Assembly: GCF_946892675.1 (NCBI RefSeq)
Contig: NZ_CAMPOV010000005.1
Coordinates: forward strand, 1-64,000
DNA: 64,000 bases
Origin: Arthrobacter sp. Marseille-P9274
GTDB taxonomy: Bacteria; Actinomycetota; Actinomycetes; Actinomycetales; Micrococcaceae
Direction: 5' to 3'
The notes under the pieces are model-generated. The model saw nothing but the letters and a program-made list of their open reading frames with translations, ran no database searches and was not told the DNA's origin. The position numbers and the translations under genes were made by a program. Of this stretch, positions 32,306 to 50,136 are shown piece by piece. Each line of letters begins with the position of its first letter. Within the stretch, counting starts at the first letter, position 1.

Positions 32306-32620
32306 ATGGAATGGATAATTCTGGTCCTGTCGGGCGTGCTTGAGGCGGTATGGGCGACGGCGTTGGGCCGTTCGCAGAACTTCCGCCGGCTGTGGCCGAC
32401 GGTCACCTTCTTCGTCGCCATGTCGGCGAGCATGACCGGCCTGGCGTTCGCGATGACGGCGATCCCGGTAGGGACCGCGTACGCCGTGTGGGTCGGCATC
32501 GGCGCCGTGCTGACGGCGGCCTACGCGATGGTTTTCGGCGGTGAACGCGCCAGCCTCGCCAAGGTGCTGCTGCTCCTGGGCATCATCGGCTGCGTTGTCG
32601 GCCTGAAGGCAGTGGGGTAG
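32306..32620 (+). CDS. SMR family guanidinium exporter subunit (Gdx/SugE type)
   Basis: A 104-residue protein with four membrane helices. LSGVLEAVWATAL holds the essential proton/substrate Glu (13), and AIPVGTAYAVWVGIGAVLTA is the conserved helix-3 stretch. The LEAVWA pattern, rather than AEV in EmrE, and the guanidine riboswitch ahead point to guanidinium/H+ antiport. Four bases separate it from the second SMR gene; together they probably form a paired, oppositely oriented heterodimer. Confidence 0.92.
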   Translation: MEWIILVLSGVLEAVWATALGRSQNFRRLWPTVTFFVAMSASMTGLAFAMTAIPVGTAYAVWVGIGAVLTAAYAMVFGGERASLAKVLLLLGIIGCVVGLKAVG

Positions 32621-32624
32621 CACG

Positions 32625-32981
32625 GTGCACTGGATCGTTTTGATTGCCAGCGCCGTGCTGGAGGCCGTGTGGGCCACCGCGCTGGACTATTCGGACGGGC
32701 TGTCGCGCCCGGGACCGGCGGCGGTCTTCCTGGTCGCCGTAGTGCTGAGCATGGCCGGCTTGGGATTTTCGATGCGCGGCATCGGCATCGGGACGGCGTA
32801 CGCGGTGTGGACCGGGCTGGGCGCGGTGTTGACGGTGCTGTACGCGGTCCTGTTCTCCGGGGAACCGGCGGGACTCTTGAAGATGCTGTTCCTGGCGGGC
32901 ATTATCGGCTGTGTGATCGGCCTCAAATTGGTTGACGGCAAGGCCGGTGGCAAGCCACCGCGGCGCGACGCCGGGGCCTGA
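32625..32981 (+). CDS. SMR family guanidinium exporter subunit, second partner
   Basis: A 118-residue second SMR protein starting at GTG: ASAVLEAVWATAL with Glu 13, and GIGIGTAYAVWTGLGAVLTV. It has a longer basic C-terminal tail (GKAGGKPPRRDAGA) than its partner, which may fix its membrane orientation. It is translated with the upstream gene under the guanidine-III riboswitch. Confidence 0.9.
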   Translation: MHWIVLIASAVLEAVWATALDYSDGLSRPGPAAVFLVAVVLSMAGLGFSMRGIGIGTAYAVWTGLGAVLTVLYAVLFSGEPAGLLKMLFLAGIIGCVIGLKLVDGKAGGKPPRRDAGA

Positions 32982-33136: not shown

Positions 33137-33913
33137 ATGAAGCCTGCCCTCAACCACCGCACGACGCTCTTCCGACAGGCCCGAGCCGCCAGTGGTTCGC
33201 TCCGCCTGGCGCTCGAAGAGGAACTTGTCCTAGGGCACCTCGAGATCGCGGAGACAGCCGCTAAGGGGTATGCGGGCACGGGGCGGGACCTGGACGACCT
33301 GAAGCAGGTGGCGCGGATGGGCCTGATCAAGGCCGTGCGCGGGTTCGACCCGGACCGCGGCACCGATTTCCCGGCCTACGCCGTTCCGACGGTGACCGGG
33401 GAACTCAAGCGCTACCTCCGTGACAGCTGCTGGATGGTCCGGCCCCCGCGCCAGCTGCAGGATCTGCGCACCGTGGTGGTCCGGACAGCGCCAGAGCTGG
33501 TCCAGCGGCTGGGCCGGGAGCCCTCGCTGGCCGAGCTGGCCGGCGAGGTCGGACAGGCCCCGCGGCTGGTGGCCGAGGCCCTGAACTGCCAGAGCAGCAT
33601 GCGGCCGGAATCCCTCGAGAGCGCGACGGACGGCCGCAGCCTGGCCGACGGGCTGGGCGGGGCCGACGAACGCCTGGAGCGGACCGAGGAGCTCGTGATG
33701 CTGCGCGCCGCCATCCGGGAGCTCGCGCCGCGCGAGCAGCAGCTGCTGTACTACCGCTACTTCGAGGAGGAATCGCAGCAGCGCGTGGGGGAGCGGGTCG
33801 GCATGACGCAGATGCAGGTTTCGCGCGCGCTGTCGCGGATTCTGGTGCGGCTGCAGCGCCGGCTGTTGGGCGAACCGGAGGCCGCTCCGGCCCGCCGGCT
33901 GCGCACCGCCTAG
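33137..33913 (+). CDS. RNA polymerase sigma factor, SigB/SigF type
   Basis: A 258-residue group 3 sigma-70 factor that directs RNA polymerase to stress-type promoters. It has region 2 (DDLKQVARMGLIKAVRGFDPDRG, in part, then FPAYAVPTVTGELKRYLRD), region 3 (LGREPSLAELAGEVG) and region 4 (LAPREQQLLYYRYFEEESQQ, then VGMTQMQVSRALSRIL). No RsbW-like anti-sigma or RsbV-like antagonist gene adjoins it. The palindrome at 33064 lies in its promoter region. Confidence 0.92.
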   Translation: MKPALNHRTTLFRQARAASGSLRLALEEELVLGHLEIAETAAKGYAGTGRDLDDLKQVARMGLIKAVRGFDPDRGTDFPAYAVPTVTGELKRYLRDSCWMVRPPRQLQDLRTVVVRTAPELVQRLGREPSLAELAGEVGQAPRLVAEALNCQSSMRPESLESATDGRSLADGLGGADERLERTEELVMLRAAIRELAPREQQLLYYRYFEEESQQRVGERVGMTQMQVSRALSRILVRLQRRLLGEPEAAPARRLRTA

Positions 33914-33924
33914 GAAGGCGCGGC

Positions 33925-34953
33925 CTACGAATCGGTGCGGATCGCGGGCTCCGCAGAGAGGATGCCGGCGCCGGGCATGACCCCGAGGCCGGCCAAGGCG
34001 TCCAGCACGTCGTCCGGAGTCACGGCGAGCAGTGCGGGATCCGGCTCCGCCGAGAACGTGTCGCCGCGCCGAAGTGCCTCATCGGTCAGCACGATGTGCG
34101 GTCCGGGCGGCGGCCCCCATTCGGCCACGGGAGCCGGGCCGAACATGACCACGGAGGGCCGCGAGTAGGCCGAGGCCAGGTGCGCGGCGCCCGTGTCGGC
34201 GGAGACGACGACGGCGGCATCGCCGATCACCGCGGCGAATTCGGTGAGCGAATACTCACCCGCGACCACGGTGTCGGGACCGAGGCCAGCCAGCCCGGCC
34301 ACTTCCTCCGCCCGCGGCCGTTCCCCTGCGCTGCCGGTGAAGACGACGTCGTGGCCGGCCAGCCCCAGTTCGCGCGCTACGGCGGCAAAGCGGTCCGCGG
34401 GCCACAGCCGGCTCCCGTAGGCTGCGCCCACATGCAGCACGGCGGCGCCGGGCCGGCTGGTCCGCTCGGCGGGGCGGCGCAGCCGGTAGTCCAGCGGGTC
34501 CGCCGGGATACCGTGCCAGTCCAGCAGCCTTGCCCAGCGCTCACGCTCGTGCAGCCCGTCCGGCCAGCCGGGGCCGTCCCAGCCGGGGGATGCATGGCCG
34601 ATCCTGCGCCGGGGCCGCAGGGCTTCGATACGGCCGCGGCTCTCGGTGCCGTTGCCGTGCAGGTTGACCGCGATGTCGACGCGGCCGGGGGAGAGGTTGA
34701 TGGGAACGTCGAGGCCGTGAGTGTCCAGCAGGTCGTCGACTGAACCGACCAGTTCCATCATCGGACGCAGCCAGGCCTGGGCGGCGTACAGGATCCGGTG
34801 GTCCGGGTAGGCGCGGCGCAGGGCGCGCAGCGCGGGCACAGCCACCAGGAGGTCACCCAGCTTCAGCGCGCGCAGCACCAGCAGTTCGGGGCGGCCGTCC
34901 GGCTCCAGTCCGTCGGGCGCCGGGTTCCTGCCCGGCTCGGTTTCTGGTTGCAT
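33925..34953 (-). CDS. glycosyltransferase family 9 (heptosyltransferase-like)
   Basis: A 342-residue GT-B enzyme. The N-terminal LVLRALKLGDLLVAVPALRALRRAYPDH is the acceptor-side signature, written here for family recognition. The C-terminal VVVSADTGAAHLASAYSRPSVVMFGP is the ADP-heptose-binding stretch. It lacks membrane helices. It is divergent from the gmhB-like gene, and its stop is 11 bp from the convergent sigma-factor stop. AGGA precedes ATG 34953; GTG/ATG 34989 would add an unconserved N-terminus. It forms the left edge of the heptose-like cluster. Confidence 0.88.
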   Translation of the reverse strand: MQPETEPGRNPAPDGLEPDGRPELLVLRALKLGDLLVAVPALRALRRAYPDHRILYAAQAWLRPMMELVGSVDDLLDTHGLDVPINLSPGRVDIAVNLHGNGTESRGRIEALRPRRRIGHASPGWDGPGWPDGLHERERWARLLDWHGIPADPLDYRLRRPAERTSRPGAAVLHVGAAYGSRLWPADRFAAVARELGLAGHDVVFTGSAGERPRAEEVAGLAGLGPDTVVAGEYSLTEFAAVIGDAAVVVSADTGAAHLASAYSRPSVVMFGPAPVAEWGPPPGPHIVLTDEALRRGDTFSAEPDPALLAVTPDDVLDALAGLGVMPGAGILSAEPAIRTDS

Positions 34954-35108
34954 GGCTTCATCCTGCCAGAGCGGCCCGGCGCACGGCACGGCGGTGGGGA
35001 AATGCGCGGCAGGCCTGGCCGGCGCCGGGGGGGCGGGGATCCGGCCGCGGCGAAAAGAAGTCGGCGCTGAAGTGTTTAGCCGGCGCCCGGGGCGGGAACA
35101 GTCCTGAT

Positions 35109-35717
35109 ATGACTTCTTCGGCTCTGCATCCGCCGCGCGCCGTCCTCTTCGACCGGGACGGGACGCTGGTCATCGACGTTCCCTACAACGGCGATCCGGC
35201 CCGGGTCCGCCCGATGCCAGGCGCCCGCACGACGCTGGACGCCGTACGGGCCGCCGGCCTGCCCTGCGGGGTGCTGACCAACCAGTCCGGCGTCGCCCGT
35301 GGCCTGCTCGACCGGAGCCAGGTGGATGCCGTCAACGCGCGGGTGGAGGAACTGCTGGGACCCTTCGCTGTGTGGGAGGTCTGCCCGCACGGACCCCAGG
35401 ACGGCTGCGGCTGCCGCAAGCCGCAGCCGGGCATGATCCTCCGGGCCTGCGAACGGCTCGGCCTGCAGCCGGACGAGGTCGCGTTCGTGGGGGACATCGG
35501 CGCGGACGTCGAGGCGGCCGCCGCGGCAGGGGCCCGGGGCGTCCTCGTGCCCACTCCGGTCACCCGGGCGGAAGAAGTCCAGGCTGCAGCCCTCGTGGCG
35601 CCTGACCTGGCGGGCGCCCTGCAGCTGCTGTTCGGGGCGGAAGGCCCGGCGCCGGTGCCCGAACAAGGAAGCCCCGTCCTGCAGGCGGCGGACGGCCTGC
35701 CCGGAGGCGGCCGATGA
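35109..35717 (+). CDS. HAD-IIIA phosphatase, GmhB-like (heptose bisphosphate phosphatase)
   Basis: A 202-residue HAD enzyme. FDRDGT (Asp 15 nucleophile, Asp 17) and VGDIGADVEAA hold the catalytic Asps. The Zn loop Cys 92-His 94-Cys 100-Cys 102 (CPHGPQDGCGCRKP) is diagnostic of GmhB/HisB-N-type enzymes. In the heptose pathway GmhB removes the 7-phosphate from D-glycero-D-manno-heptose-1,7-bisphosphate. First gene of a tight operon; its stop overlaps the next start (ATGA). The last ~25 residues are an unconserved tail. Confidence 0.88.
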   Translation: MTSSALHPPRAVLFDRDGTLVIDVPYNGDPARVRPMPGARTTLDAVRAAGLPCGVLTNQSGVARGLLDRSQVDAVNARVEELLGPFAVWEVCPHGPQDGCGCRKPQPGMILRACERLGLQPDEVAFVGDIGADVEAAAAAGARGVLVPTPVTRAEEVQAAALVAPDLAGALQLLFGAEGPAPVPEQGSPVLQAADGLPGGGR

Positions 35718-36781
35718 GCCGCGTGCTGGTGGCGCGGCTGGACAGCGCCGGCGATGTCCTGCTGGCCGGCCCCGCCGTCAGGGCCATCGCGGCGGGGGAC
35801 GGCGCCGGACCCAACGAGGTGCTAATGCTCTGCGGTCCGCAGGGCGCCGCGGCCGGGCAGCTGCTCCCGGGCGTGGCCGAGGTGTTCACCTGGGCGAGCC
35901 CGTGGATCGTGGATCCGGCCCCGCCCGTCAGCGACGAGCATCTTGCCGTGCTGCTGGACTGGGTGCGCTCGCGGTCGGTCACCGAGGCCATCATCCTCAC
36001 TTCCTTCCACCAGTCGCCGCTGCCGCTCGCGATGCTGCTGCGGCTCGCCGGCGTCCGGCGGATCACCGGGGCCTCGGTGGACTACGCCGGCTCGCTGCTC
36101 GACGTCCGGCTGAAGCCGGGCGAGGACTTCCCGGAAGACCAGCCCGAGGCCGAGCGCGCGCTGCGGATCGCATCGGCGGCCGGTTACCGGCTGCCCGACG
36201 GCGACGACGGACGGCTGCGGGTGCGCGACGTTCCGGATGCGGGGGACCTGTTTGGCGGCCGCCCGTACGTGGCCGTGCACCCGGGGGCGGCGGTGCCGGC
36301 GAGGGCCTGGCCGCCGCTGCACCACGCGGCGGCCGTGGAGCTGCTGGTCGCCGCCGGCTTCAATGTCGTGGTCACCGGCGGCCCGAAGGAGCGCGGCCTC
36401 ACCGCCACCGTCGCCGGTCCGGACGCGCTGGACCTGGGCGGCGAGACGGACCTGCGCGGCCTGGCCGGTGTGCTGGCCGGGGCCTCCGCCGTCGTCACCG
36501 GCAACACGGGACCGGCGCACCTGGCCGCGGCCGTCGGCACCCCCGTGGTGAGCCTGTTCTCGCCCGTGGTCCCGGCCGTGCGCTGGGCGCCGTACAAGGT
36601 GCCGGTGGAGTTGCTCGGGGATCAGAATGCGGCGTGCCGGCTGAGCCGGGCCCGCGAGTGCCCGGTCCCGGGGCATCCCTGCCTGGCGGACGTGGCGCCG
36701 GAGGAAGTCGTGGCGGCCGTGCAGCGGCTGTGTCTTGGCGTGGCCTCGCTGCCCGCCCGGAGAGAAATGAGGAACGGATGA
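35714..36781 (+). CDS. glycosyltransferase family 9 (heptosyltransferase-like)
   Basis: A 355-residue GT9 protein: LVARLDSAGDVLLAGPAVRAIA at the start, VAVHPGAAVPARAWPP at the domain junction, and VVTGNTGPAHLAAAVGTPVVSLFSP for donor binding. It would move a heptose-like sugar from a nucleotide donor to an unknown acceptor. No membrane helices. It overlaps both neighbours by ATGA, so it is co-translated with them. Confidence 0.9.
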   Translation: MSRVLVARLDSAGDVLLAGPAVRAIAAGDGAGPNEVLMLCGPQGAAAGQLLPGVAEVFTWASPWIVDPAPPVSDEHLAVLLDWVRSRSVTEAIILTSFHQSPLPLAMLLRLAGVRRITGASVDYAGSLLDVRLKPGEDFPEDQPEAERALRIASAAGYRLPDGDDGRLRVRDVPDAGDLFGGRPYVAVHPGAAVPARAWPPLHHAAAVELLVAAGFNVVVTGGPKERGLTATVAGPDALDLGGETDLRGLAGVLAGASAVVTGNTGPAHLAAAVGTPVVSLFSPVVPAVRWAPYKVPVELLGDQNAACRLSRARECPVPGHPCLADVAPEEVVAAVQRLCLGVASLPARREMRNG

Positions 36782-37782
36782 AGATTCTGCTGTGGCACGT
36801 GCACGGCGGCTGGACCGACGCTTTCGTGCGCGGGCAGCACGAGTACCTGCTTCCCGCGACCCCGGAAGGCGGCCCCTGGGGCCTGGGCCGGGCCGGCCGC
36901 GAGTGGCCCGAAAGCGTCCGCGACGTGGCGCCGGAGACGCTTGGACAGGAGGACATCGACGTCGTTGTCCTCCAGCGCCCGGAAGAGGTGGACGAATGCG
37001 CCCGGCTGCTGGGCCGCCGCCCCGGCAAAGACGTTCCGGCCGTGTTCCTGGAGCACAACACGCCCAAGGGCGGCGTCCCGAACTCGGTGCACCCGCTGGC
37101 GGACCAGCAGCAGATCCCGATCGTCCACGTCACGCACTTCAACAGGCTGTTCTGGGACTGCGGCGGCGCCCGCACCACCGTGATCGAGCACGGGATCGTG
37201 GATCCCGGCCCGCTCTACACCGGGGAGCTGGACCGCCTGGGCGTGGTGGTCAACGAGCCGGTGCGGCGGTGGCGGGTGACCGGGACGGACCTGCTGCCCG
37301 GCTTCGCCGAGGCCGCGCCGCTGGACGTGTTCGGCATGGGTGGCGACGGGCTGCCCGAGGCCGTCGGGCTGGGACCGGACCGGCTGGCCGTGTGCGGCGA
37401 CCTGCCGGGCAGGCGGCTGCATTCCGAGCTGGCCCGCCGCCGCGCGTACCTGCACCCGCTGCGCTGGACCTCGCTGGGCCTGGCCCTGCTGGAGGCCATG
37501 CACCTGGCCATGCCCGTGATCGTGCTGGCCACGACGGAGGCCGCCCGGGCGGTGCCGCCGGAGGCCGGCGCAATCTCCACGGACGTGGACTACCTCCGGG
37601 CCGAAGCCGCGCGGCTGGTCCGGGAACCGGAGGAGGCTAGGGCGCGCGGCGCCGTCGCCCGGCAGGCCGCGCTCGAACGTTATTCCCTGGCGGCGTTCCT
37701 CCAGAACTGGGACGCCGTGCTGGCCGAAGCCACGGCCGGCGCCGGCAGATTGATGGCAGTGACCGAGAGGAGTCAGCTGTGA
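36778..37782 (+). CDS. glycosyltransferase, GT4-like
   Basis: A 334-residue GT-B enzyme starting [20 protein letters not shown]. The C-terminal donor domain has [20 protein letters not shown] and [18 protein letters not shown], which fit GT4-type transferases, although the canonical E-x7-E is degenerate. In the first half, [16 protein letters not shown] and HNTPKGG suggest a nucleotide-sugar or acceptor loop. The ATGA overlap places it in the gmhB operon. Donor and acceptor are unknown. Confidence 0.78.
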
Positions 37783-39041
37783 GGATATCGATGGTCTCCG
37801 AGCATGCCAGCCCGCTGGCCGTGCTGGGGGGAGTGGACGCCGGCGGCCAGAACGTGCATGTGGCCGAGCTGTCCGCCGCCTTGGCGCGGCGCGGGCACTT
37901 CGTCACCGTCTACACCCGGCGGGACAGCCGGGACCTCCCGCACCGGGTGTTCATGCGGCCCGGAGTAGAAGTGGTGCACGTGGAGGCCGGCCCCGCGGAG
38001 CCTGTGCCGAAGGACGAGCTGCTGCCCTATATGGGCGAACTGGCGGACGGCATCAGCGCGGACTGGGGAGACAGCCCGCCTGACGTGGTGCACGGGCATT
38101 TCTGGATGTCCGGCGTGGCCGCACTCGACGCGGCGCGGCGGCACTCTGGCGAGGGCTACCCGGTGCCGGTGCTGCAGACCTTCCACGCGCTCGGCACCGT
38201 GAAGCGGCGGCACCAGGGCGCGCAGGACACCAGTCCGGAGCAGCGGGCGTGGCTGGAACCGAACGTCGGACGCAGCGTGGACCGGATTATCGCCACGTGC
38301 TCGGACGAGGTGTTCGAGCTGGCCGCGATGGGGATTCCGCGCGGCAACGTCTCGATCGCGCCCTGCGGCGTGGACGTTGACCTGTTCACGGCCGAGGGCG
38401 CCGCGGAGGAGCGCGGACGCAGGCACCGCATTGTCACGCTGGGGCGGATGGTGCCGCGCAAGGGCGTGGACATTTCGGTGCGGGCTCTGAAGCTGCTGAA
38501 GGACCGGGGCATCGGCGACGTCGAATTGCTGGTGGTCGGCGGATCTGCCGGCCCGGAGGGGCTGGCAGCGGATCCGGAGGCGCAGCGGCTGCTGTCGCTG
38601 GCACGCGAACTCGGTGTGGAGGAGCAGATCGTCCTGCGCGGGCAGGTTCCGCGCGAGCAGATCCCGGCCGTCCTGCGCAGCGCGGACGTCGTCGTCTGCG
38701 TGCCCTGGTACGAGCCGTTCGGGATCGTGCCGCTGGAATCGATGGCCTGCGGCGTCCCCGTGGTCGCGGCCTCGGTCGGTGGCCTGATCGACACGGTGGT
38801 GGACCACAAGACCGGTCTGCACGTGCCGCCGCGGGATCCGGAGGCGGTGGCGGACGCGCTTGCGGCCCTGCTGGCCGACCCGCAGTTCGCCGCTGAGCTC
38901 GGCCGGGCGGGCCGCCAGCGGGTGCGGACCCGGTACACCTGGGACCGGGTTGCCGCGGATACCGAGCGGGCCTATGGCCTGGCCCGCAGCTCCGGAGCCC
39001 GGCGCGGTTCGCTGCACGTGCTGGAAGGAGAGGCACTGTGA
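37779..39041 (+). CDS. glycosyltransferase family 4 (GT4)
   Basis: A 420-residue GT-B enzyme starting at GTG (overlap GTGA). [24 protein letters not shown] is the sucrose-synthase/MshA-type start, [15 protein letters not shown] the central hinge, and [22 protein letters not shown] the E-x7-E donor motif (intact). It resembles sucrose-phosphate-synthase-like and mannosyl-type GT4 transferases. Soluble, cytoplasmic face. Confidence 0.9.
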
Positions 39042-39751
39042 GGCGCATGGCGGCCGCGGCCCGGCCGGCGGGACCGGAAGCGGCCGAATCGTACGCGCCG
39101 GTCCCCGCGCTGGTGCCGGTCCCGGCGCGCCCTGCCAGGCAGCCCGGCGCGGACTCCGTCGACGTCGTGCTGGCCCACCTGGACGAGGTTGCCCCGGCGG
39201 TCGAGTCCCTGCGGGCCCAGGCGGCACAGCTCGCCGCGTGGGGTGACGAGCTGGCGGGCCGGCTGATGCGCGGGCACCGGCTGCTCGCCGCGGGCAACGG
39301 CGGTTCCGCCGCCGAGGCCCAGCACCTGACCGCGGAGCTCGTGGGGAGGTTCGACGGCGAACGCGAGGCCTTTTCCGCCATCTCCCTGCACGCCGAATCC
39401 TCCGCCGTCACGGCCATCGCCAACGACTACGGCTACGACCAGCTCTTTGCCCGGCAGGTGCTGGGCCACGGCCGCGACGGCGACATCCTGATCCTGCTCT
39501 CCACGAGCGGCAAGAGCCCGAACCTGCTCAACGCGGTCGAAGCGGCCCGAAGGGTTGGCGTGACCACCTGGGCCCTGACCGGCGCGGCGCCCAACCCGCT
39601 CGCCCGCAGCTGCGACGAATTCGTGGCGGTAGAGGGGCAACCGGCCAATGCGCAGGAGGGGCATCTGATGGCCGTACACATGATCTGCCGCGCCTTCGAC
39701 TCCGCGGTGGCACGCCAGGGCCGGGTCGGCGGAGAGGGGGACACGCGATGA
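39038..39751 (+). CDS. SIS-domain phosphoheptose isomerase, GmhA-like
   Basis: A 237-residue protein with an unconserved 40-residue N-terminus and a full GmhA fold: [22 protein letters not shown] (His 96 and Glu 100), STSGKS (155-160, phosphate loop) and [15 protein letters not shown] (Gln 206, His 214). These match the Zn ligands of E. coli GmhA. It should convert sedoheptulose-7-phosphate to D-glycero-D-manno-heptose-7-phosphate. GTGA and ATGA overlaps bind it into the operon. Confidence 0.9.
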
Positions 39752-41106
39752 GGATCGTGGTGGTAGGAGACCTCCTGCTGGATGCCGATGTCAACGGCGA
39801 GGCCAGCCGCCTCTCACCCGATGCCCCCGTCCCGGTCGTGGACGTGGCGGCGACGGAGCGGCGCGCCGGCGGCGCCGGGCTGGTCGCCCGCATGCTGGCG
39901 CGCGACGGGCGCGACGTTCAATTGGTCACGGTAATGTCCGACGACGGCGCTTCCGTCCTGCTGCGCCGGGAGCTGGAAGGCATCGACGTCGTTGCCGGCC
40001 CCTCGGGCGCCCCCACGCCGGTCAAGACGAGGATCCGGGCCGGCGGCCAGGCGGTGGCCCGTTTCGACGAAGGCTGCGGCGACGCCCCGGTCCCGGCAGC
40101 CACGGAGGAGATGCTCGCCGCGGTGGCCGCGGCGGATGCCGTCATCGTGGCCGACTACGGGCGGGGGCTGGCCGCGAATGCCGACCTGCGCGGGCTGCTC
40201 ACCGAGCTGGCGGCCACGATCCCCGTGGTCTGGGACCCGCATCCCGCCGGCGCCGACCCCGTCCCCGGCGCCACCGCCGTGACGCCGAACCTGTCCGAGG
40301 CGCTCAAGGCCGCGGGGCTATCCGGCCGGGATACCGCAACCGCGGCCCGGGCGGCTGCCGATCTGCGGCGGCGCTGGTCCTGCCGGTCCGTCGTCGTCAC
40401 CCTCGGCGCCGCGGGCGCGCTGGTGCTCGACGACGGCGGCCTGCCGCAGGCCATCCCCGCGCCGAAGGTCAGCGCGGCCGATCCCTGCGGCGCCGGCGAC
40501 CGGTTCGCCGCCGCCCTCGCGGTAGGACTGGCCTCCGGTAACGGCGTCGCCCCCGCCGCAGAGCGGGCCGTGCAGGAGGCCGCGTCCTTCCTGGCCGCAG
40601 GCGGGGTGGACGCCTTGAACGAGGCTCCGGCGCCGCCGCAGCTGCACGGGGACGGCGACGCGTTCGCCGTCGCCCAGCAGACGCGCGCCGCAGGCGGGAC
40701 CGTCGTGGCCACCGGCGGCTGCTTCGACCTGCTGCACGCCGGCCACGCCCGCACCCTCGCGGCGGCCCGGTCCCTGGGCGACTGCCTGGTCGTCTGCCTC
40801 AATTCGGACGCTTCCGTCAGCCGCCTCAAGGGCGACGAACGCCCGATCATGAACCAGCAGGACCGGGCCGAACTCCTGCTCTCGCTCGAATGCGTGGACG
40901 CCGTCCTGGTCTTCGAGGAGCAGACGCCCGAGGCTGCGTTGGAGCGGCTCCGTCCGGATCTCTGGGTCAAGGGCGGGGACTACACGGCGGACCAGCTGCC
41001 CGAGGCCAAGCTGCTCGAGTCCTGGGGCGGCCAGACGGTCACCGTTCCCTACTATCCGGCGCGGTCCACCACCAAGCTCGCCGCAGCGCTGGCCAAGGTC
41101 GGCTGA
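39748..41106 (+). CDS. HldE-like bifunctional heptose kinase/nucleotidyltransferase (copy 1)
   Basis: A 452-residue fusion of a PfkB/RfaE-type sugar kinase (about 1-300; GAGD with Asp 251) and a nucleotidyltransferase (about 315-452; GCFDLLHAGH with His 330 and His 333, then RLKGDERPI and VKGGDYT). In HldE the first half phosphorylates C-1 and the second half activates the heptose to ADP-heptose. The substrate-side motif usually reading PGGAANVA is here AGGAGLVA, so the sugar may differ. It is the last gene tightly overlapped in its operon; the SDR follows 42 bp later. Confidence 0.88.
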   Translation: MRIVVVGDLLLDADVNGEASRLSPDAPVPVVDVAATERRAGGAGLVARMLARDGRDVQLVTVMSDDGASVLLRRELEGIDVVAGPSGAPTPVKTRIRAGGQAVARFDEGCGDAPVPAATEEMLAAVAAADAVIVADYGRGLAANADLRGLLTELAATIPVVWDPHPAGADPVPGATAVTPNLSEALKAAGLSGRDTATAARAAADLRRRWSCRSVVVTLGAAGALVLDDGGLPQAIPAPKVSAADPCGAGDRFAAALAVGLASGNGVAPAAERAVQEAASFLAAGGVDALNEAPAPPQLHGDGDAFAVAQQTRAAGGTVVATGGCFDLLHAGHARTLAAARSLGDCLVVCLNSDASVSRLKGDERPIMNQQDRAELLLSLECVDAVLVFEEQTPEAALERLRPDLWVKGGDYTADQLPEAKLLESWGGQTVTVPYYPARSTTKLAAALAKVG

Positions 41107-41148
41107 ACGGCGCCGCATGCAGATCCGTCAACTGAAGGAGGAACATTC

Positions 41149-41850
41149 ATGAACGCAGCAGCAAGCAATCCCGGCCGCGTCCTGGTCACGGGAGGCGGCT
41201 CCGGGCTCGGCGCCGCTGTGGTCGAGGCCGTCCGCGCGGCCGGCGGCACCCCGGTGGTGCTGGACCGCGACGTGAGTCGGGTGGCCGGAGCCAAGGCGCT
41301 CGAAGTAGACGTGGCGGACCGCGAGGCCGTCACCGCCGCCGTGCGCGAGGCGGCGGAGTCGCTCGACGGACTGGACGCCGTCGTGACCGCCGCGGGGATC
41401 GACCGCTGCGGCAGGCTGGAGGACGTGCCGGCGGAGGAATGGGAGAAGGTGATCGGCGTGAACCTGCTCGGCACCGTCTCGGTGGTCCGCGCCGCACTGC
41501 CCTATCTGGAGGCGAACCACGGCCGCGTCATCACCGTGGCCTCCTCACTTGGTATCAAGGCCGTCTCCGACGCCACCGCCTACTGCGCGTCGAAATTCGG
41601 CGTGGTCGGCTTCAGCCGGGCGCTGGCCGCGGAGACCCGCGGCCGGATCGGGGTCACCACGATGATTCCCGCGGGCATGAAAACGCGCTTCTTCGACGAC
41701 CGCACCGAGCAATACAAGCCGCAGGACGACTCACGGCTGAACGACCCGGAGCGGGTGGCCGAGGCGATCCTGTTCGCGCTCGGCCAGCCGCGCGGCTGCG
41801 AGGTGCGCGAGATGGTTATTTGCCACGAAGAAGAAGACTCGTGGCCCTAA
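41149..41850 (+). CDS. short-chain dehydrogenase/reductase
   Basis: A 233-residue classical SDR: TGGGSGLG cofactor motif, TAAGID, and YCASK with the catalytic Tyr and Lys. It is not the extended-SDR type of the ADP-heptose epimerase HldD. It could reduce or oxidise the activated sugar. AAGGAGGAA precedes the ATG. Its 3' end overlaps the convergent GT9 gene by 35 bp. Confidence 0.85.
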   Translation: MNAAASNPGRVLVTGGGSGLGAAVVEAVRAAGGTPVVLDRDVSRVAGAKALEVDVADREAVTAAVREAAESLDGLDAVVTAAGIDRCGRLEDVPAEEWEKVIGVNLLGTVSVVRAALPYLEANHGRVITVASSLGIKAVSDATAYCASKFGVVGFSRALAAETRGRIGVTTMIPAGMKTRFFDDRTEQYKPQDDSRLNDPERVAEAILFALGQPRGCEVREMVICHEEEDSWP

Positions 41851-43060
41851 GCTGGGCCAGGTCCGCGTAGACATCCTCTGCGCGGACCTGCTCGGTCAAT
41901 GCGAACGCGTGCCCGCAGTGCGGCGCGGTCCAGCCCACTTGGGTGACGTCCGCGCCGCACTGCGGGCAGTGTGTTGTCCAGGACAGGTGCACCCGGTGCA
42001 GGGTGCGCCCCAGCGGCCCGGCCATGATCAGGTTGCCGACCCAGTAGATTCCCACCGTCGGCGTGCCCACGGCCTGTGCCAGGTGCCGCGGGCCGCTGTC
42101 GTTGCCGAGCATGACGTCGCTGGCGCGCAGCACGGCCGACAACTCCGCCAGCGTCAGCCGCCCCGCCGCGGAACGGATGCTGCCGCCGTCGTCCGCGTGT
42201 TCGCGCGCCAGGGCCACGACCTCTTCGGCGAGCGGAACGTCCGAATCGTCGCCGACCAGCAGGACCTGGCTGCCGTCCGCGGCGGCCTGGGCGGCCACGC
42301 GGGCAAAGGACGACGCCGGCCAGCGGCGGCGCGGATCGGTGGCGCCGGGGTGGATGGTCACCAGGGAGGGCCGCCCCGGATCCAGCCACTCGGAGGCCAG
42401 CTCCTCTTCGTCCGGCAGCGGAGCCAGTTGCGGCTGCAGCGCTGCCGGAGCGGCGCCGGCCAGGCCGACGACCTCCAGGGCACGCAGGACCTCGTGCTGG
42501 TAGTAGAGGTACGGAATGGTGCGTTCCAGGGCGGCGGCGTCTTCGGTGCGGGTGCCGACGGTGTGCCGGGCGCCGAGCCGCAGCAGGAAGGGGTTGGAAT
42601 GGCGGCCGCCGCCGTGCAATTGGACCGCCAGGTCGAACTTCCGGGCGCGCATCCGCTCCATGAAGTCCTCCACGGCTTCCGGATCCTCCGGGCCGGGGCG
42701 CACGCCCTCCGCCAAGGGCAGAGGCTCGATCCGGTGCACCGGTCCGGGGCGTCCGCCGAACAGCGCGGCGTGGGCTTCGGTGCCCAGCAGCGTGATTTCG
42801 GCCTCCGGATACGCCGCGGCGAGGGCGTCGATGGCCGGCACGGCGAACATCACGTCGCCCAGCCCGCCGCCGCGCAGCACCGCGATGCGGCGCACGCCGT
42901 CGAAGCGTTCGAGAATCGGCCCGATGCCCAGCCCGTGGGCGGCTTCCGGCGCCAGGCGCTCGCCGCCGAAGGCCGCACCGCCGGTGGCGACCTCGGTTCC
43001 GTTGAGCTTGGCTCCGTCGCCCTCCGTTCCATTCCGCTGCGCGCGTGGCTGATGCTGCAT
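41816..43060 (-). CDS. glycosyltransferase family 9 with C-terminal Cys/His cluster
   Basis: A 414-residue GT9 transferase. IAVLRGGGLGDVMFAVPAIDALAAAYPEAE is the acceptor-side signature (in part), VTIHPGATDPRRRWP the hinge, and VMLGNDSGPRHLAQAVGTPTVGIYW the donor motif. The region HCPQCGADVTQ plus HCGHAF looks like a small metal site and is seen in some bacterial heptosyltransferase-like proteins. It is the only minus-strand gene inside the cluster, converging with the SDR. GGAGG precedes ATG 43060. Confidence 0.88.
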   Translation of the reverse strand: MQHQPRAQRNGTEGDGAKLNGTEVATGGAAFGGERLAPEAAHGLGIGPILERFDGVRRIAVLRGGGLGDVMFAVPAIDALAAAYPEAEITLLGTEAHAALFGGRPGPVHRIEPLPLAEGVRPGPEDPEAVEDFMERMRARKFDLAVQLHGGGRHSNPFLLRLGARHTVGTRTEDAAALERTIPYLYYQHEVLRALEVVGLAGAAPAALQPQLAPLPDEEELASEWLDPGRPSLVTIHPGATDPRRRWPASSFARVAAQAAADGSQVLLVGDDSDVPLAEEVVALAREHADDGGSIRSAAGRLTLAELSAVLRASDVMLGNDSGPRHLAQAVGTPTVGIYWVGNLIMAGPLGRTLHRVHLSWTTHCPQCGADVTQVGWTAPHCGHAFALTEQVRAEDVYADLAQLRATSLLLRGK

Positions 43061-43269
43061 GGGCTCCTCCGGCTCCGGTCGGCTGGCGTACGGGTGCCGG
43101 TCTGCTCGCTGCAGGACCGGCTTCCAGCTTCACCCTAAATGCTGCATCGGGCGGTGGCCAGAGCTCCCAAGAGGTTCGCATGCGCGTGTCTGAAGTCGTC
43201 CTCAACGGGGTACGGAAGGGGGAGAAGAGGCCCGATTGCCGCGGCCGGATCCGAACAGTAGGGAGCGTA

Positions 43270-44673
43270 ATGACAACGGTTTCAGGGACCGCTTTGCACG
43301 AAGGCCAGGCCACCATCACGATCCTCGACCCGCGCGACGGCAGCTTGGCCGGAACCGTTCGCGAGGCCGGCCGGGCGGAGGTGGAACAGGCCGTCGCGGC
43401 CTCCCGGCGGGCGCAGCCGGGATGGGCGCAGCGCGACGCCGCGGAGCGCGGCGGCTTCCTGCACGCCGCTGCGGACGCGCTCCAAACCGGCGCCGCCGAA
43501 CTTGCCGCGCTGAATGCGCGGGAGACCGGCCGCCCCGAGGACCAGGCGCTGGAGGGCGTCCTCGCCGGGGCGTCCACGCTGCGCCAGTATGCCGAGCTGG
43601 CGCCGGTGCATCGCGGCCACAGCCTGCGCGGCGGGCGGCTGGCCGCGGACTACACGATCGCGGAGCCCCGGGGCGTGGCTGCCCTGCTCACCCCATGGAA
43701 CGATCCGGTGGCCGTGGCCGCCGGCCTGCTCGGCGCGGCGCTGGCCACCGGGAACACGGTGCTGCACAAGCCGAGCGAGCGCTGCCCGCAATTGGGCCAG
43801 CGGCTCGGTGAGATGCTGGCCTCCGTCCTGCCTCCCGACGTCCTGATCACGCTGACCGGCGGACCCGCCGTGGGGGAGGCCCTGACCCGCCTGCCCGGCA
43901 TCGACGTCTACGCCCACGTCGGTTCCAGCGCCACCGGGGCGCGGATCGCCCGGGCCGCGGCCGAGAGGGGCGCCCACGTGGTCCGCGAGAACGGCGGCAA
44001 TGACCCGCTGCTCGTCGACGACGGCGTCGATCCCGTGTGGGCCGCAGGGCAGGCGGCGCTCGGGGCCTTCGCCAACAGCGGGCAGATCTGCACCTCGGTG
44101 GAACGGGTCTACGTGCACCGGTCGGTGGCTGACGCGTTCTGCGAGGCGCTGGTAGCCGAGGCCAGGCGGCGCAATGCCGGCCGCCTGCTCGGCCCGCTGG
44201 TGGATGACCGGCTGCGCCGCGAGGTGCACCGACAGGTCGGGGAGGCCATCGACGGCGGCGCCGTCGCCGCGGAAGGCGGTGCCCTGCCCGACGGCCCGGG
44301 CTCGTACTATCCGGCCACGGTGCTGCTCGGCTGCACCGAGAGCATGGCCGTCATGCAGGAGGAAACGTTCGGCCCCGTGGCTCCCGTGCGCGTGGTGGAC
44401 AGCTTCGAGGAAGGACTGGAACTCGCAGCCGTCGGCCGGTACGGGCTGGCCGCCACCGTCCTGACCGCCGACATGGAGCACGCCCAGCGCGCCATTGCCG
44501 GCCTGGATGTCGGCACGGTGAAGGTCAACGCCGTCTTCGGCGGGGCGCCCGGCGGCTCCGCCCAGCCGCGGCGGGACAGCGGCCACGGGTTCGGCTACGG
44601 GCCGGAGCTGCTGGACGAGTTCGTGCAGGTCAAGGTGGTCCACCTGGGCCTGCCCGGCGGAGCCACCCGATGA
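43270..44673 (+). CDS. aldehyde dehydrogenase family protein
   Basis: A 467-residue NAD(P)-dependent ALDH. LLTPWNDPVAVAAGLLGAAL is the Rossmann entry, LTGGPAVGEAL a cofactor loop, RENGGNDP carries the general-base Glu (240), and NSGQICTS the catalytic Cys (274). GGGAG precedes ATG 43270; an in-frame ATG at 43180 could add 30 residues. It opens the second operon of the cluster, overlapping the HldE-like gene by ATGA. The substrate is unknown; oxidation of an aldose or amino-aldehyde made in the cluster is a guess. Confidence 0.88.
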   Translation: MTTVSGTALHEGQATITILDPRDGSLAGTVREAGRAEVEQAVAASRRAQPGWAQRDAAERGGFLHAAADALQTGAAELAALNARETGRPEDQALEGVLAGASTLRQYAELAPVHRGHSLRGGRLAADYTIAEPRGVAALLTPWNDPVAVAAGLLGAALATGNTVLHKPSERCPQLGQRLGEMLASVLPPDVLITLTGGPAVGEALTRLPGIDVYAHVGSSATGARIARAAAERGAHVVRENGGNDPLLVDDGVDPVWAAGQAALGAFANSGQICTSVERVYVHRSVADAFCEALVAEARRRNAGRLLGPLVDDRLRREVHRQVGEAIDGGAVAAEGGALPDGPGSYYPATVLLGCTESMAVMQEETFGPVAPVRVVDSFEEGLELAAVGRYGLAATVLTADMEHAQRAIAGLDVGTVKVNAVFGGAPGGSAQPRRDSGHGFGYGPELLDEFVQVKVVHLGLPGGATR

Positions 44674-46184
44674 GCGCGGGGCTCTCCGGCATCTCGGGGC
44701 TGTCCGCCTGGCTGCCGGAGCGGCTGGCCGAGGCGGCACCGCTGGTGACCGTGGTCGGCGACGTGATGCTGGACGGCTGGTTCAGCGGCCGCATCGACCG
44801 GTTCTGCCGAGAAGCCCCGGCCCCCGTGGTGGACATGGCGCACCGCGACTACGCTCCGGGCGGCGCCGCCAACACCGCCATGAACCTGGCCGCACTCGGC
44901 GCGAAGGTGCGGATGGTTGGCCTCGTCGGCCTCGACGACGCCGGCACCCGGCTCCGCGGCCTCCTGTCCGCCGCAGGCGTGGATACGGCGGGGCTCATCG
45001 AGCACCCGGGGGTCGTCACCACGACCAAGTACCGCGTGATCGGCGGCGACCAGATCATGCTGCGGATGGACGAGAGCACGCCGCGGCCGCCGGCCGAGGC
45101 CCTGCAGCAGTTGGCCGCCGCGCTGCCGGACGCGGTGGCGGGCTCGGACGCCGTCGTGCTCTGCGACTACGGCTCCGGCGCGCTGGAAGGACCGCTGGGG
45201 GACGTGCTCCACCTGCAGCGCGAGGGCAAGCTGCTGGTGGTGGACGCGCACGACCTCCGCCGCTGGCGCACGCTTCGGCCGGACCTGGTGACCCCCAACG
45301 CCCAGGAGACCGCGCGGCTGCTGGAGCTGGAGTTCGAGCCGGACGGGGACCGGGCGGGCCTGCTGGCCGAGGCCGCACCCAACCTGCTCGCGGCGACCGG
45401 CGCGCGCGCCGTGGTGTCCACCCTGGACCGTGACGGCACCCTGCTGCTGACGCACGACGGCGGCACGCACCGGACATGGGCATCTCCGGTGAGCGAGAAG
45501 CAGGCCTCCGGCGCGGGCGACACCTTCGTGGCGTGCCTGACGCTGGCCCGCGCGGCCGGGCTGCCGCTGACCACCAGCCAGGACCTGGCGCAGGTGGCCG
45601 CGGACGTCGTCGTCCACCGGCCGGGCACCTCTGTCTGCACGACTGCGGACCTCGCCGGGCACCTGGGCGCCTTCACCGAGGCCGCGCTGGGCGCGGACGA
45701 GCTGGCCCGCGCCATCGCGACGGAACGTGCCGCCGGCAAGCGGATCGTGCTGACCAACGGCTGCTTCGACGTGCTGCACCGCGGGCATACCAGCTACCTG
45801 ACGCAGGCGAAGCAGCTCGGAGACGTGCTGGTAGTGGCCCTCAACAGCGACGCGTCCGCGCGCCGGCTGAAGGGGCCGGACCGGCCGATCAACCCGGCGG
45901 CCGACCGGGCGGGCGTGGTGGCCGCGCTGAGCTGCGTGGACTACGTGACGGTCTTCGATACGGACACGCCGATCCCGCTGATCGAATCACTGAAGCCGGA
46001 CATCTACGCCAAGGGCGGGGACTACTCGGCCCAGATGCTGGCCGAAACCCCGGCGGTGGAAGCCTACGGCGGGCAACTGGCCATCCTGGACTACGTCTCG
46101 GACCATTCGACGACGGCGGTGGTCCGGCGCATCCGGGCCCAGGACGGGGCGGGGGAACCGGCCGCCGGAACGGGTCCGGCATGA
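44670..46184 (+). CDS. HldE-like bifunctional heptose kinase/nucleotidyltransferase (copy 2)
   Basis: A 504-residue second HldE-type fusion. The kinase half has VVGDVMLDGWFSGRIDRF, YAPGGAANTAMNLAALGA and GAGD (Asp 284). The nucleotidyltransferase half has GCFDVLHRGH (His 370, His 373), RRLKGPDRPIN and AKGGDYS. Here the sugar-binding SRISPEAP of E. coli HldE is replaced by DRFCREAP while PGGAAN is kept, the reverse of copy 1, so the two copies probably differ in substrate or step. ATGA overlaps on both sides. Confidence 0.88.
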   Translation: MSAGLSGISGLSAWLPERLAEAAPLVTVVGDVMLDGWFSGRIDRFCREAPAPVVDMAHRDYAPGGAANTAMNLAALGAKVRMVGLVGLDDAGTRLRGLLSAAGVDTAGLIEHPGVVTTTKYRVIGGDQIMLRMDESTPRPPAEALQQLAAALPDAVAGSDAVVLCDYGSGALEGPLGDVLHLQREGKLLVVDAHDLRRWRTLRPDLVTPNAQETARLLELEFEPDGDRAGLLAEAAPNLLAATGARAVVSTLDRDGTLLLTHDGGTHRTWASPVSEKQASGAGDTFVACLTLARAAGLPLTTSQDLAQVAADVVVHRPGTSVCTTADLAGHLGAFTEAALGADELARAIATERAAGKRIVLTNGCFDVLHRGHTSYLTQAKQLGDVLVVALNSDASARRLKGPDRPINPAADRAGVVAALSCVDYVTVFDTDTPIPLIESLKPDIYAKGGDYSAQMLAETPAVEAYGGQLAILDYVSDHSTTAVVRRIRAQDGAGEPAAGTGPA

Positions 46185-47098
46185 GCCACGGCCCCGAAGC
46201 CACCAGCCAGGGCCCAGGCGACGCGACCGGCCATGCCCCAGGCCGCCGCGGCGCGGGCGAGTGGGCCAACCCCCTGACGCCGGCCGGGACGCCCGAGGTG
46301 CAGGTGCTGATCCCCAGCTACGGGCGCCAGGACGCGCTGGCGGTGACGCTCGCCGGCCTGGCCGCCCAGGACGGCCCCTCCTTCGGCGTCATCATCAGCG
46401 ACCAGACGGAATCCGGCCCGGCGTGGGAGCAGCCGTCGACGGCCGCCATGGTCCGCGTGCTGCAAGCCCAGGGCCGCCCCGTGCAGCTGGAGCACCATCT
46501 GCCGCGCCGGGGCATGGCCGAACAGCGCGACTTCCTGCTGGGCCTGGCCGAGTCGCCGCTGGTGCTGTTCCTCGATAACGACATCTGGCTGGAACCTGGC
46601 ATGCTGGCCCGGCTCACCGCCGCCCTGCGCGAGGCCGGCTGCGGGTTCGTCGGCTCGGCCGTGCAGGGCCTGTCCTACCTGGACGACGTCCGCCCGGACG
46701 AGCAGCAGCCGTTCGAGCTGTGGGACGGGCCCGTGCGGCCGGAGCGGATCCGCCGCACGGACGAGGCGTTCGGGCGCTGGACGCTGCACAACGCCGCCAA
46801 CCTCGCGCACATCGCCGCCCGGCTCCGCATCCCGGCCGGAGGCTGGCGGCTGTACCGCGTGGCCTGGGTGGGCGGCTGCGTCCTCTTCGACCGGCAGGCC
46901 CTGCTGGACTGCGGCGGCTTCGCCTTCTGGAAGGACCTGCCGGCCGCCCATGCCGGCGAGGACGTCGTGGCGCAGCTGAAGGTCATGGAGCGCTTCGGCG
47001 GCGCCGGCATCATCCCCTCCGGGGCGGTGCACCTGGAGGCGCCGACCACCGTCGTCGACCGTTCCACAGAAGCCACCGAGGTGCTGCTCGACGAGTGA
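46181..47098 (+). CDS. glycosyltransferase family 2
   Basis: A 305-residue GT-A enzyme with a short disordered start. VQVLIPSYGRQDALAVTLAGLA is the nucleotide-sugar fold, VLFLDNDIWLEPGML contains the metal-binding DxD (DND), and HAGEDVVAQLKVMERFGG the later acidic motif with VGGCVLFDRQALLDCGGF between. No membrane helix. It overlaps the HldE-like copy 2 by ATGA and ends the cluster before the TerC leader. Confidence 0.88.
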   Translation: MSHGPEATSQGPGDATGHAPGRRGAGEWANPLTPAGTPEVQVLIPSYGRQDALAVTLAGLAAQDGPSFGVIISDQTESGPAWEQPSTAAMVRVLQAQGRPVQLEHHLPRRGMAEQRDFLLGLAESPLVLFLDNDIWLEPGMLARLTAALREAGCGFVGSAVQGLSYLDDVRPDEQQPFELWDGPVRPERIRRTDEAFGRWTLHNAANLAHIAARLRIPAGGWRLYRVAWVGGCVLFDRQALLDCGGFAFWKDLPAAHAGEDVVAQLKVMERFGGAGIIPSGAVHLEAPTTVVDRSTEATEVLLDE

Positions 47099-47151: not shown

Positions 47152-47272
47152 CGTAAGGGAGTATTCCGAAGCGCTGCAGCCGTCAACACGTAGGGCACCG
47201 ATGCCCCGCCGGGTGCAGCGCCTGGCAGCAGCCGGGGGAGAGACTTGCGGGTACGTTGCTACCCACCTTACG
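47152..47272 (+). promoter_or_regulatory. yybP-ykoY (Mn2+) riboswitch
   Basis: CGTAAGG (47152-47158) pairs with CCTTACG (47266-47272) as the closing stem. Just inside lie the conserved 5' GGGAGTA (47157-47163) and the 3' CCGGGGGAGAGACTTGCGG, the two strands of the Mn2+-binding L1/L3 loops. It ends two bases before the ribosome site of terC. Family members turn on manganese exporters such as MntP, Alx and TerC-type proteins when Mn2+ is high. Confidence 0.82.
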
Positions 47273-47285
47273 AAAGAGGAACCTG

Positions 47286-48470
47286 ATGACAGTTCCACCC
47301 CTGATCTGGGGAATCACGATTGTCGTGATCCTGGCCCTGCTGGCCTTCGACTACTTCTTCCACATCCGCAAGGCGCACGTGCCGACGCTGAAGGAAGCGG
47401 CCATCTGGTCGTCCATCTACGTCGGCATCGCGATCATCTTCGGCATCCTGGTGCTCGTGTTCGGCGGCAGCGCGATGGGCTCGGAGTACTTTGCCGGCTA
47501 CATCACGGAGAAGGCGCTCTCCGTAGACAACCTCTTTGTCTTCCTGATCATCATCGCCAGCTTCCGGGTCCCCCGCGAGGACCAGCAGAAGGTGCTGCTG
47601 TTCGGCATCGTGTTCTCGCTGATCGCGCGGACCGGCTTCATCTTCCTCGGCGCGGCCCTGATCAACTCCTTCGCCTGGGTGTTCTACGCCTTCGGCCTCA
47701 TCCTGATCCTCACCGCGGGCAACCTGCTCAAGCCGGACAAGGACGGCGACGAGGCGGACAACTTCATCATCCGGCTGGCCCGGAAGATGTTCCACACCAC
47801 GGACTACTACGACGGCGACAAGCTCACCACCATGGTGGACGGCAAGAAGGCCCTGACCCCGATGCTGCTGGTCATGGTGGCCATCGGCGGCACGGACATC
47901 CTCTTCGCCCTGGACTCCATCCCGGCCATCTTCGGCCTGACCCAGAACGTCTACATCGTCTTCACCGCCACGGCCTTCTCGCTGATGGGCCTGCGCCAGC
48001 TGTACTTCCTGATCGACGGCCTGCTGGACCGCCTCATCTACCTCTCCTACGGCCTGGCCGCGATCCTGGCCTTCATCGGCGTGAAGCTGATCCTGCACGC
48101 GCTGCACGAGAACAACCTGCCGTTCATCAACGGCGGCGAGCCCGTCGAGGTCATCGAAATCACCACCGGGCTGTCGCTGACCGTCATCATCGGCGTCCTG
48201 GTGATCACGGTCGTCGCCTCGCTGCTCAGCAAGGCCGGCAAGGCCCAGACGGCCATCAACAACGCCCGCCGGCACGCGGTCAACTACCTCGACCTCGGGT
48301 ACACCGCGGACCTGGAGGAGCGCGAGCGCATCTTCAAGGCCCTGGTCGAGGAGGAACGCCAGATCCTGCAGATGGAGCCGAAGTACCGCAACAAGGCCAA
48401 GGACGTGGACAAGATCCGCGAGCAGGTGGCCGAGGCGCACCGGCAGCACGAGGAATACCTCGCCCGGTAG
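47286..48470 (+). CDS. TerC family membrane protein (probable Mn2+ exporter)
   Basis: A 394-residue protein with about eight to nine helices and a charged C-terminal tail. FDYFFHIRKAH, TEKALSVDNLFVFLIIIASF and GGTDILFALDSIPAIFG are the TerC/Alx signatures, with acidic residues inside the membrane that bind the metal. The Mn2+ riboswitch just upstream supports manganese export over tellurite resistance. AGAGGA precedes ATG 47286. A long palindromic terminator follows. Confidence 0.9.
   Translation: MTVPPLIWGITIVVILALLAFDYFFHIRKAHVPTLKEAAIWSSIYVGIAIIFGILVLVFGGSAMGSEYFAGYITEKALSVDNLFVFLIIIASFRVPREDQQKVLLFGIVFSLIARTGFIFLGAALINSFAWVFYAFGLILILTAGNLLKPDKDGDEADNFIIRLARKMFHTTDYYDGDKLTTMVDGKKALTPMLLVMVAIGGTDILFALDSIPAIFGLTQNVYIVFTATAFSLMGLRQLYFLIDGLLDRLIYLSYGLAAILAFIGVKLILHALHENNLPFINGGEPVEVIEITTGLSLTVIIGVLVITVVASLLSKAGKAQTAINNARRHAVNYLDLGYTADLEERERIFKALVEEERQILQMEPKYRNKAKDVDKIREQVAEAHRQHEEYLAR

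Positions 48471-48563: not shown

Positions 48564-50136
<1,573 letters not shown>

Follow-up and report, generated by a model that had tools for sequence, protein, structure and literature searches.

Activated seven-carbon sugars are typical of Gram-negative lipopolysaccharide (LPS), for which ADP-heptose is made by GmhA, HldE, GmhB and HldD and transferred by GT9 heptosyltransferases. A cluster of twelve genes at 33925-47098 of a 64,000-nucleotide stretch of Arthrobacter sp. Marseille-P9274 (this whole stretch is called the window) contains members of most of these enzyme families in a Gram-positive host. The closest described system is cwg of Streptomyces coelicolor, a "putative cell wall glycan operon" of twelve genes, SCO6179-SCO6190, whose products include a glycosyltransferase (SCO6185), a putative phosphoheptose isomerase (SCO6186, cwgH) and a bifunctional synthase/transferase (SCO6187, cwgI) (PMC5839063, PMC4630627, PMC6767563; all papers are cited here from excerpts). 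The operon has been recognised as a target of envelope stress from 2002 on (cited in PMC6767563). It is induced by vancomycin via sigma-E (PMC6767563), and salt raises cwgA (PMC13011467). In the available parts of the open-licence literature on actinobacterial heptose and on cwg, no description of the cwg product was found. The excerpt of a paper on a Frankia salt-stress heptosyltransferase gave no link to the window cluster.

The window cluster is almost certainly homologous to cwg by sequence. It is not an orphan and belongs, as a variant, to a system already known though unsolved. The proposal favoured here, with a probability of roughly 0.6, is that it represents the Micrococcales form of the cwg-type glycan clusters of actinobacteria, producing an envelope heptose glycan under SigB-type control.

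Relationship to the cwg operon

The comparison with cwg was made by way of the published descriptions of the operon and of L040, a locus from a same-class genome of 7.7 Mb. In one direction L040 encodes an epimerase, a carbamoyltransferase, GT2, GmhB, GT9b, GTx, GT4, GmhA, HldE1, GT9a, GT2 and GT2. SCO6185, SCO6186 and SCO6187 correspond to positions 7, 8 and 9 of this series. The published cwg promoter (PMC6767563) is present upstream of the L040 epimerase gene, matching at 27/29 bases and lying about 148 bases ahead of the start given by the gene call (147 as printed). Beside the epimerase lies a divergent polysaccharide deacetylase gene (PF01522); SCO6178, by cwg, is a putative deacetylase as printed. 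Three features of L040 are the basis for the homology: the order of its twelve genes, the cwg promoter as published and the divergently placed deacetylase gene. The cwg promoter was also found in L042 with 7 mismatches, and before the epimerase in no other locus at up to 8.

Reading frames of the window and their translations were assigned to families with Pfam and NCBIfam. Of the twelve gene products, one is GmhA-like, one GmhB-like and two HldE-like; six are glycosyltransferases (three of GT9, two of GT4 type and one of GT2), and the others are a short-chain dehydrogenase/reductase (SDR) and an aldehyde dehydrogenase (ALDH). They are listed with the sigma gene and the predicted promoter (PF01075 is the GT9 family, cut-off 22 bits):

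33137-33913, plus strand: SigB/SigF/SigG-family-like sigma factor, possible regulator (best model TIGR02980)
33925-34989, minus strand: GT9a, GT9 glycosyltransferase (PF01075 76.8 bits; nearest solved structures 3tov and WaaF 1psw)
35074-35099, plus strand: predicted SigB-type promoter, GTTTAG-N14-GGGAAC, 9 bases before the GmhB start codon
35109-35717, plus strand: GmhB-like heptose-bisphosphate phosphatase (NF006506, below cut-off; best solved match 4pnh)
35714-36781, plus strand: GT9b, GT9 glycosyltransferase of the conserved core (PF01075 85.0 bits; best solved match WaaF 1psw)
36778-37782, plus strand: GTx, GT4-type glycosyltransferase and cluster marker (weak Pfam matches; AlphaFold2 model and Foldseek)
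37779-39041, plus strand: GT4 glycosyltransferase, MshA / sucrose-phosphate-synthase-like (TIGR03449 241 bits, below the cut-off of 462.5; best solved match 6kih)
39038-39751, plus strand: GmhA-like sedoheptulose-7-phosphate isomerase (TIGR00441; SIS_2 match)
39748-41106, plus strand: HldE1, kinase and nucleotidyltransferase of the conserved core (TIGR02199, above cut-off; TIGR02198, below cut-off)
41149-41850, plus strand: classical SDR oxidoreductase (PF00106 136.8 bits)
41816-43060, minus strand: GT9c, third GT9 glycosyltransferase (PF01075 93.5 bits)
about 43294-44673, plus strand: ALDH, start codon uncertain (PF00171 355.8 bits)
44670-46184, plus strand: HldE2, second kinase and nucleotidyltransferase (TIGR02199, above cut-off)
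46181-47098, plus strand: GT2 glycosyltransferase (PF00535 40.2 bits)

Every cluster gene lies where the original prediction had placed it; the sigma gene and the promoter were missing from that inventory. The claim of six soluble glycosyltransferases, three of them GT9, agrees with the Pfam matches and with a Kyte-Doolittle scan (19 residues, a crude test), in which no strong membrane segment appeared and the cluster maximum was 2.00 (GTx) vs 2.73 for the adjoining TerC membrane protein. Likewise, no flippase, ABC or other exporter, polymerase or ligase gene occurs within the cluster. Tight coupling as a working unit was borne out in part. Overlaps of 4 bases (ATGA/GTGA) are found at 7/9 joins between consecutive plus-strand genes, the others being HldE1 to SDR (42 bases) and SDR to ALDH (with GT9c between them on the minus strand). 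However, the plus-strand genes fall into two runs, 35109-41850 and about 43294-47098, and two GT9 genes are on the minus strand, so that the cluster is not one operon.

The core GmhB-GT9b-GTx-GT4-GmhA-HldE1 and GT9a are, as read in L040, shared with cwg. Unlike cwg, the window cluster lacks a carbamoyltransferase and a cwgA-type epimerase, and has an additional HldE2, GT9c, ALDH and SDR. The twelve cwg genes run in one direction whereas the window genes occupy both strands, and because two GT9 genes are on the minus strand the cluster is filed as a cwg variant and not as the cwg operon itself. The promoters differ as well, being SigB-type in the window and sigma-E in cwg. The sigma-E pattern AAC-N15-18-GTC was found nowhere on the plus strand of 34800-35110, and at one minus-strand site inside GmhB. 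The core protein GTx has a GT4-type fold according to its AlphaFold2 model (pLDDT 91.4, 25 aligned sequences), which in Foldseek was closest to the GT4 enzymes BshA, PimB', PimA and TarM (TM about 0.6-0.7); the fold leaves donor and acceptor unfixed.

A distribution survey was among the checks proposed originally, and the core order does recur in distant actinobacteria, which marks it as more than a chance arrangement. Cluster loci (a set fetched as the best 80 of at least 592 stretches from at least 575 relatives) are found in Arthrobacter and relatives, Microbacteriaceae, Micromonosporaceae, Streptomyces, Planobispora, Amycolatopsis and others, and the core order is kept across many actinobacterial families. 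The marker GTx is present in 40/396 sampled phylum genomes, in 42/149 genomes of the family and in 7/8 of the same-genus genomes listed. The assignment of the host to Micrococcaceae is in line with a same-family genome (G008) whose HldE2 is identical to that of the Arthrobacter ipis record. A heptose nucleotidyltransferase scoring above its cut-off was detected in 47/396 phylum genomes: 34/40 with GTx vs 13/356 without (Fisher p 2.6e-32, not to be taken at face value as the genomes are related). Two of the six GTx genomes that failed the cut-off score just below it.

Counts of accessory genes refer to 110 loci of at least 10 kb (6/116 were shorter and were dropped; A. ipis is included twice, as L034 and L089), which are related and not independent. 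Carbamoyltransferase was found in 34, HldE2 in 51, both in 1 and neither in 26. The two thus form nearly exclusive accessory sets. Carbamoyltransferase is missing from 76/110 loci and so does not define the wider cluster. Among Micrococcaceae (37 named loci), HldE2 is present in 33 loci, GT9c in 26, ALDH in 21 and carbamoyltransferase in none; PF02543 has 0 matches in the host genome. One locus of Goodfellowiella (Pseudonocardiaceae, L091) contains the Micrococcales-type set with HldE2, GT9c, ALDH and GT2, which suggests transfer between families. In Pseudomonas, WapO, a putative carbamoyltransferase, modifies LPS core heptose (PMC8005017, excerpt). The carbamoyltransferase-bearing sister clusters also pair such an enzyme with heptose enzymes and may, by analogy only, carbamoylate heptose; the window cluster differs in having no carbamoyltransferase.

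The GC content of the cluster is 73.6% vs 68.1% in the remaining window (5.5 points higher). A genomic island was rejected, since core GC exceeds flank GC in 28/28 named loci passing length filters (of 80), and the high GC is thus no evidence of recent transfer.

Heptose enzymes and the predicted sugar

As the original prediction held, the GmhA-like, GmhB-like and two HldE-like enzymes match the ADP-heptose pathway minus epimerisation, and the set fits a route from sedoheptulose-7-phosphate to NDP-D,D-heptose. Both HldE-like genes encode PfkB and CTP_transf_like domains, and both pass the heptose nucleotidyltransferase model TIGR02199 (HldE1 183.0, HldE2 194.5, cut-off 181.5). The GmhA-like protein is the sole SIS_2 match of the host genome (84.2 bits, cut-off 27). 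The closest solved structures are phosphoheptose isomerases for GmhA, the D,D-heptose 1,7-bisphosphate phosphatase 4pnh for GmhB, and the putative cytidylyltransferase 5x9q and the heptose-7-P kinase 4e84 for both HldE proteins.

Motif positions were compared in orthologues taken from the fetched loci. GmhA H96, E100, Q206 and H214 are invariant (95/95 orthologues), as are GmhB C92, H94, C100 and C102 (52/52), and GAGD is kept by HldE1 in 99/99. These are taken to be metal and catalytic positions. Synthesis of NDP-heptose by the cluster enzymes is, judged from sequence, very probable. Promiscuity for NTPs reportedly results from an Arg at position 5 of (F/L)xxGxSTT (PMC11461863, excerpt). HldE1 has this Arg before STT in the window and in 89/99 orthologues. 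In HldE2 the residue is His in the window and varies among the orthologues (R 24, H 17, Q 4 of 52).

No HldD scored above the cut-off in the host genome (best match 96.8 bits, cut-off 274.6) or in any of the 40 GTx-bearing genomes, vs 2/14 control genomes. The predicted sugar is therefore D-glycero-D-manno-heptose and not L,D-heptose. Compared with the LPS pathway, the enzyme families are the same and three GT9 enzymes are present in the cluster, but HldD above cut-off is absent, D,D-heptose is predicted, the host is Gram-positive and there are two HldE proteins.

In a quick tree (152 rows), which warns of long branches meeting, HldE1 and HldE2 were divided by one branch with a support of 100. 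The idea that HldE2 is a recent duplicate of HldE1 was rejected, as the two are on opposite sides of it. Five HldE2-labelled rows (L063-L067) sit near the HldE1 group. They come from one distant actinobacterial family (f18) with GTx at 37-39% identity and perhaps represent an intermediate cluster type.

Promoter motif and the neighbouring sigma gene

The predicted promoter matches 10/12 positions of the SigB consensus GTTTAA-N12-14-GGG(A/T)A(A/T) quoted in PMC8346170, and one SigB-family promoter in the table of that paper, as excerpted, also ends in GGGAAC. The motif GTTTA(G/C)-N13/14-GGGAAC lies before GmhB; a loose form was found in 55/108 upstream regions, where its overall frequency in the loci would predict about 1.6. 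The strict motif was found in 51/108 vs a mean of 0.01 in mononucleotide shuffles. Its distribution upstream of GTx is uneven: 33/37 loci in Micrococcaceae, 14/15 in Micromonosporaceae, 1/10 in Microbacteriaceae, 2/34 without a taxon name, 0/3 in Streptomyces and 0/3 in Planobispora. In the host genome (4.78 Mb) the strict motif has one copy, at 35074-35099 (a reversed control also has 1). A first pattern with other spacing gave 3 sites in the host, 2 of them outside promoter position by gene calls. With the host counted, the strict motif precedes the cluster in 22/42 cluster-bearing family genomes. A broad regulon was rejected: the 41 other cluster-bearing family genomes contain 29 further strict-motif sites vs 53 reversed-control sites. 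In a set of 20 family genomes without GTx there are 21 sites.

The gene at 33137-33913 scores 208.8 bits with TIGR02980, its best-scoring model, below the cut-off of 234.35. A sigma gene is found upstream on the same strand in 35/37 Micrococcaceae loci of at least 10 kb. Across the 110 loci, sigma gene and motif occur together in 34, the motif only in 16, the sigma gene only in 11 and neither in 49. On this pattern the neighbouring sigma factor is the simplest candidate for reading the promoter at 35074-35099. A STAS partner of the sigma gene was rejected as wrong or unsupported: two small open reading frames at 32306-32981, adjoining each other and upstream of the sigma gene, encode small multidrug resistance (SMR, SugE-like) transporters, and the one in L072 has no Pfam match.

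Proposed product and alternatives

The following route is proposed, in which substrates, activities, the nature of the glycan, its export and envelope location and the acting sigma factor are all predicted. GmhA would convert sedoheptulose-7-phosphate to D-glycero-D-manno-heptose-7-phosphate, HldE1 and/or HldE2 would phosphorylate C1, and GmhB would take off the 7-phosphate. The nucleotidyltransferase domains of HldE would then yield NDP-D,D-heptose as the ADP form, and with HldE1 perhaps as the CDP and UDP forms too. All six glycosyltransferases (GT9b, GTx, GT4, GT9a, GT9c and GT2) would take part in assembling a heptose-containing oligosaccharide in the cytoplasm, and proteins encoded elsewhere would export it and attach it to the cell envelope. 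Transcription of the core run would be started at 35074-35099 by a sigma factor of the SigB family, for which the product of the neighbouring gene is the simplest choice. By analogy with cwg, the product is most likely an envelope glycan; the induction of cwg by vancomycin through sigma-E and the rise of cwgA in salt fit such a role.

Several observations weigh against this proposal. The cluster has no gene for export, polymerisation or ligation, and the envelope location is thus argued by analogy with cwg, itself "putative". The strict motif is not upstream of the cluster in 20/41 other cluster-bearing family genomes (in one, G479, GTx is at a contig end). It is present in 14/15 Micromonosporaceae loci with no sigma gene in the locus, and the neighbouring sigma factor may therefore not be the one that reads it. 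Several enzymes score below their equivalog cut-offs: GmhA (TIGR00441 144.5, cut-off 209.45), GmhB (NF006506 108.9, cut-off 178), both HldE kinase domains (TIGR02198 155.0 and 214.4, cut-off 345) and whole HldE (NF008454 270.0 and 359.7, cut-off 521). There are also conserved departures: HldE1 has Leu after GGAx in 98/99 orthologues, where the HldE2 kinase motif has Asn, and GmhA has Glu93 (E in 76/95 orthologues), which is Asp in aligned solved relatives.

The lack of a polymerase or flippase, the cytoplasmic appearance of all cluster proteins and the patchy spread of the cluster in both phylum and family would also suit a secreted small saccharide or a glycosylated natural product in place of an envelope glycan. 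NDP-heptose does feed the synthesis of septacidin in a Streptomyces (PMC11461863, excerpt). However, no polyketide, peptide or nucleoside synthesis gene was found by Pfam among the twelve, and the cluster has no natural-product core genes, by which it differs from the septacidin pathway as described there. The core order is kept across many families and the Streptomyces form is under envelope-stress control, and a small saccharide is accordingly improbable. A product that stays inside the cell or on proteins, such as a soluble heptose oligosaccharide protecting against stress or a protein glycosylation, is about equally improbable. The SigB-type promoter, the salt response of cwgA (PMC13011467) and the absence of strong membrane segments are consistent with it, but the homologue is controlled by sigma-E and vancomycin and six glycosyltransferases are many for a solute. 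Least probable is that the enzymes use other sugar phosphates and make no heptose, as the low scores and conserved departures would allow. Against this, the two nucleotidyltransferase domains score above the heptose cut-off, enzymes of all four functions are encoded together with three GT9 enzymes alongside, and the motif positions of GmhA and GmhB do not vary among the orthologues read.

A wider version of the envelope glycan proposal is tentative and rather unlikely as a whole. It states that many Gram-positive Actinomycetota make a so far unrecognised D-glycero-D-manno-heptose envelope glycan, functionally equivalent to the inner core of LPS, which one branch (Streptomyces and others) would carbamoylate, while the Micrococcales branch would instead have a second NDP-heptose synthetase, a third heptosyltransferase and a dedicated SigB-type sigma factor and promoter. 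A heptose glycan in Gram-positive bacteria, if real, would bear on cell-wall biology and on vancomycin-type envelope stress. Many soil actinobacteria would then hold NDP-heptoses, agonists sensed by mammalian ALPK1. A concrete structure can be sought, given the phylum-wide heptose core and its two accessory sets, which almost exclude each other. As the promoter is present in one copy and close to a sigma gene, the regulation can be tested directly. A supposed orphan has thus become a variant of an unsolved system with a testable sugar, an accessory-gene split and a genome-unique promoter motif.

Of the other neighbouring genes in the window, the one immediately after the cluster encodes a TerC-family membrane protein (47256-48470, PF03741); an acetyl-CoA hydrolase/transferase-like gene lies on the minus strand at 48598-50109, and 30480-31547 encodes a BrkB/YihY-type membrane protein (PF03631).

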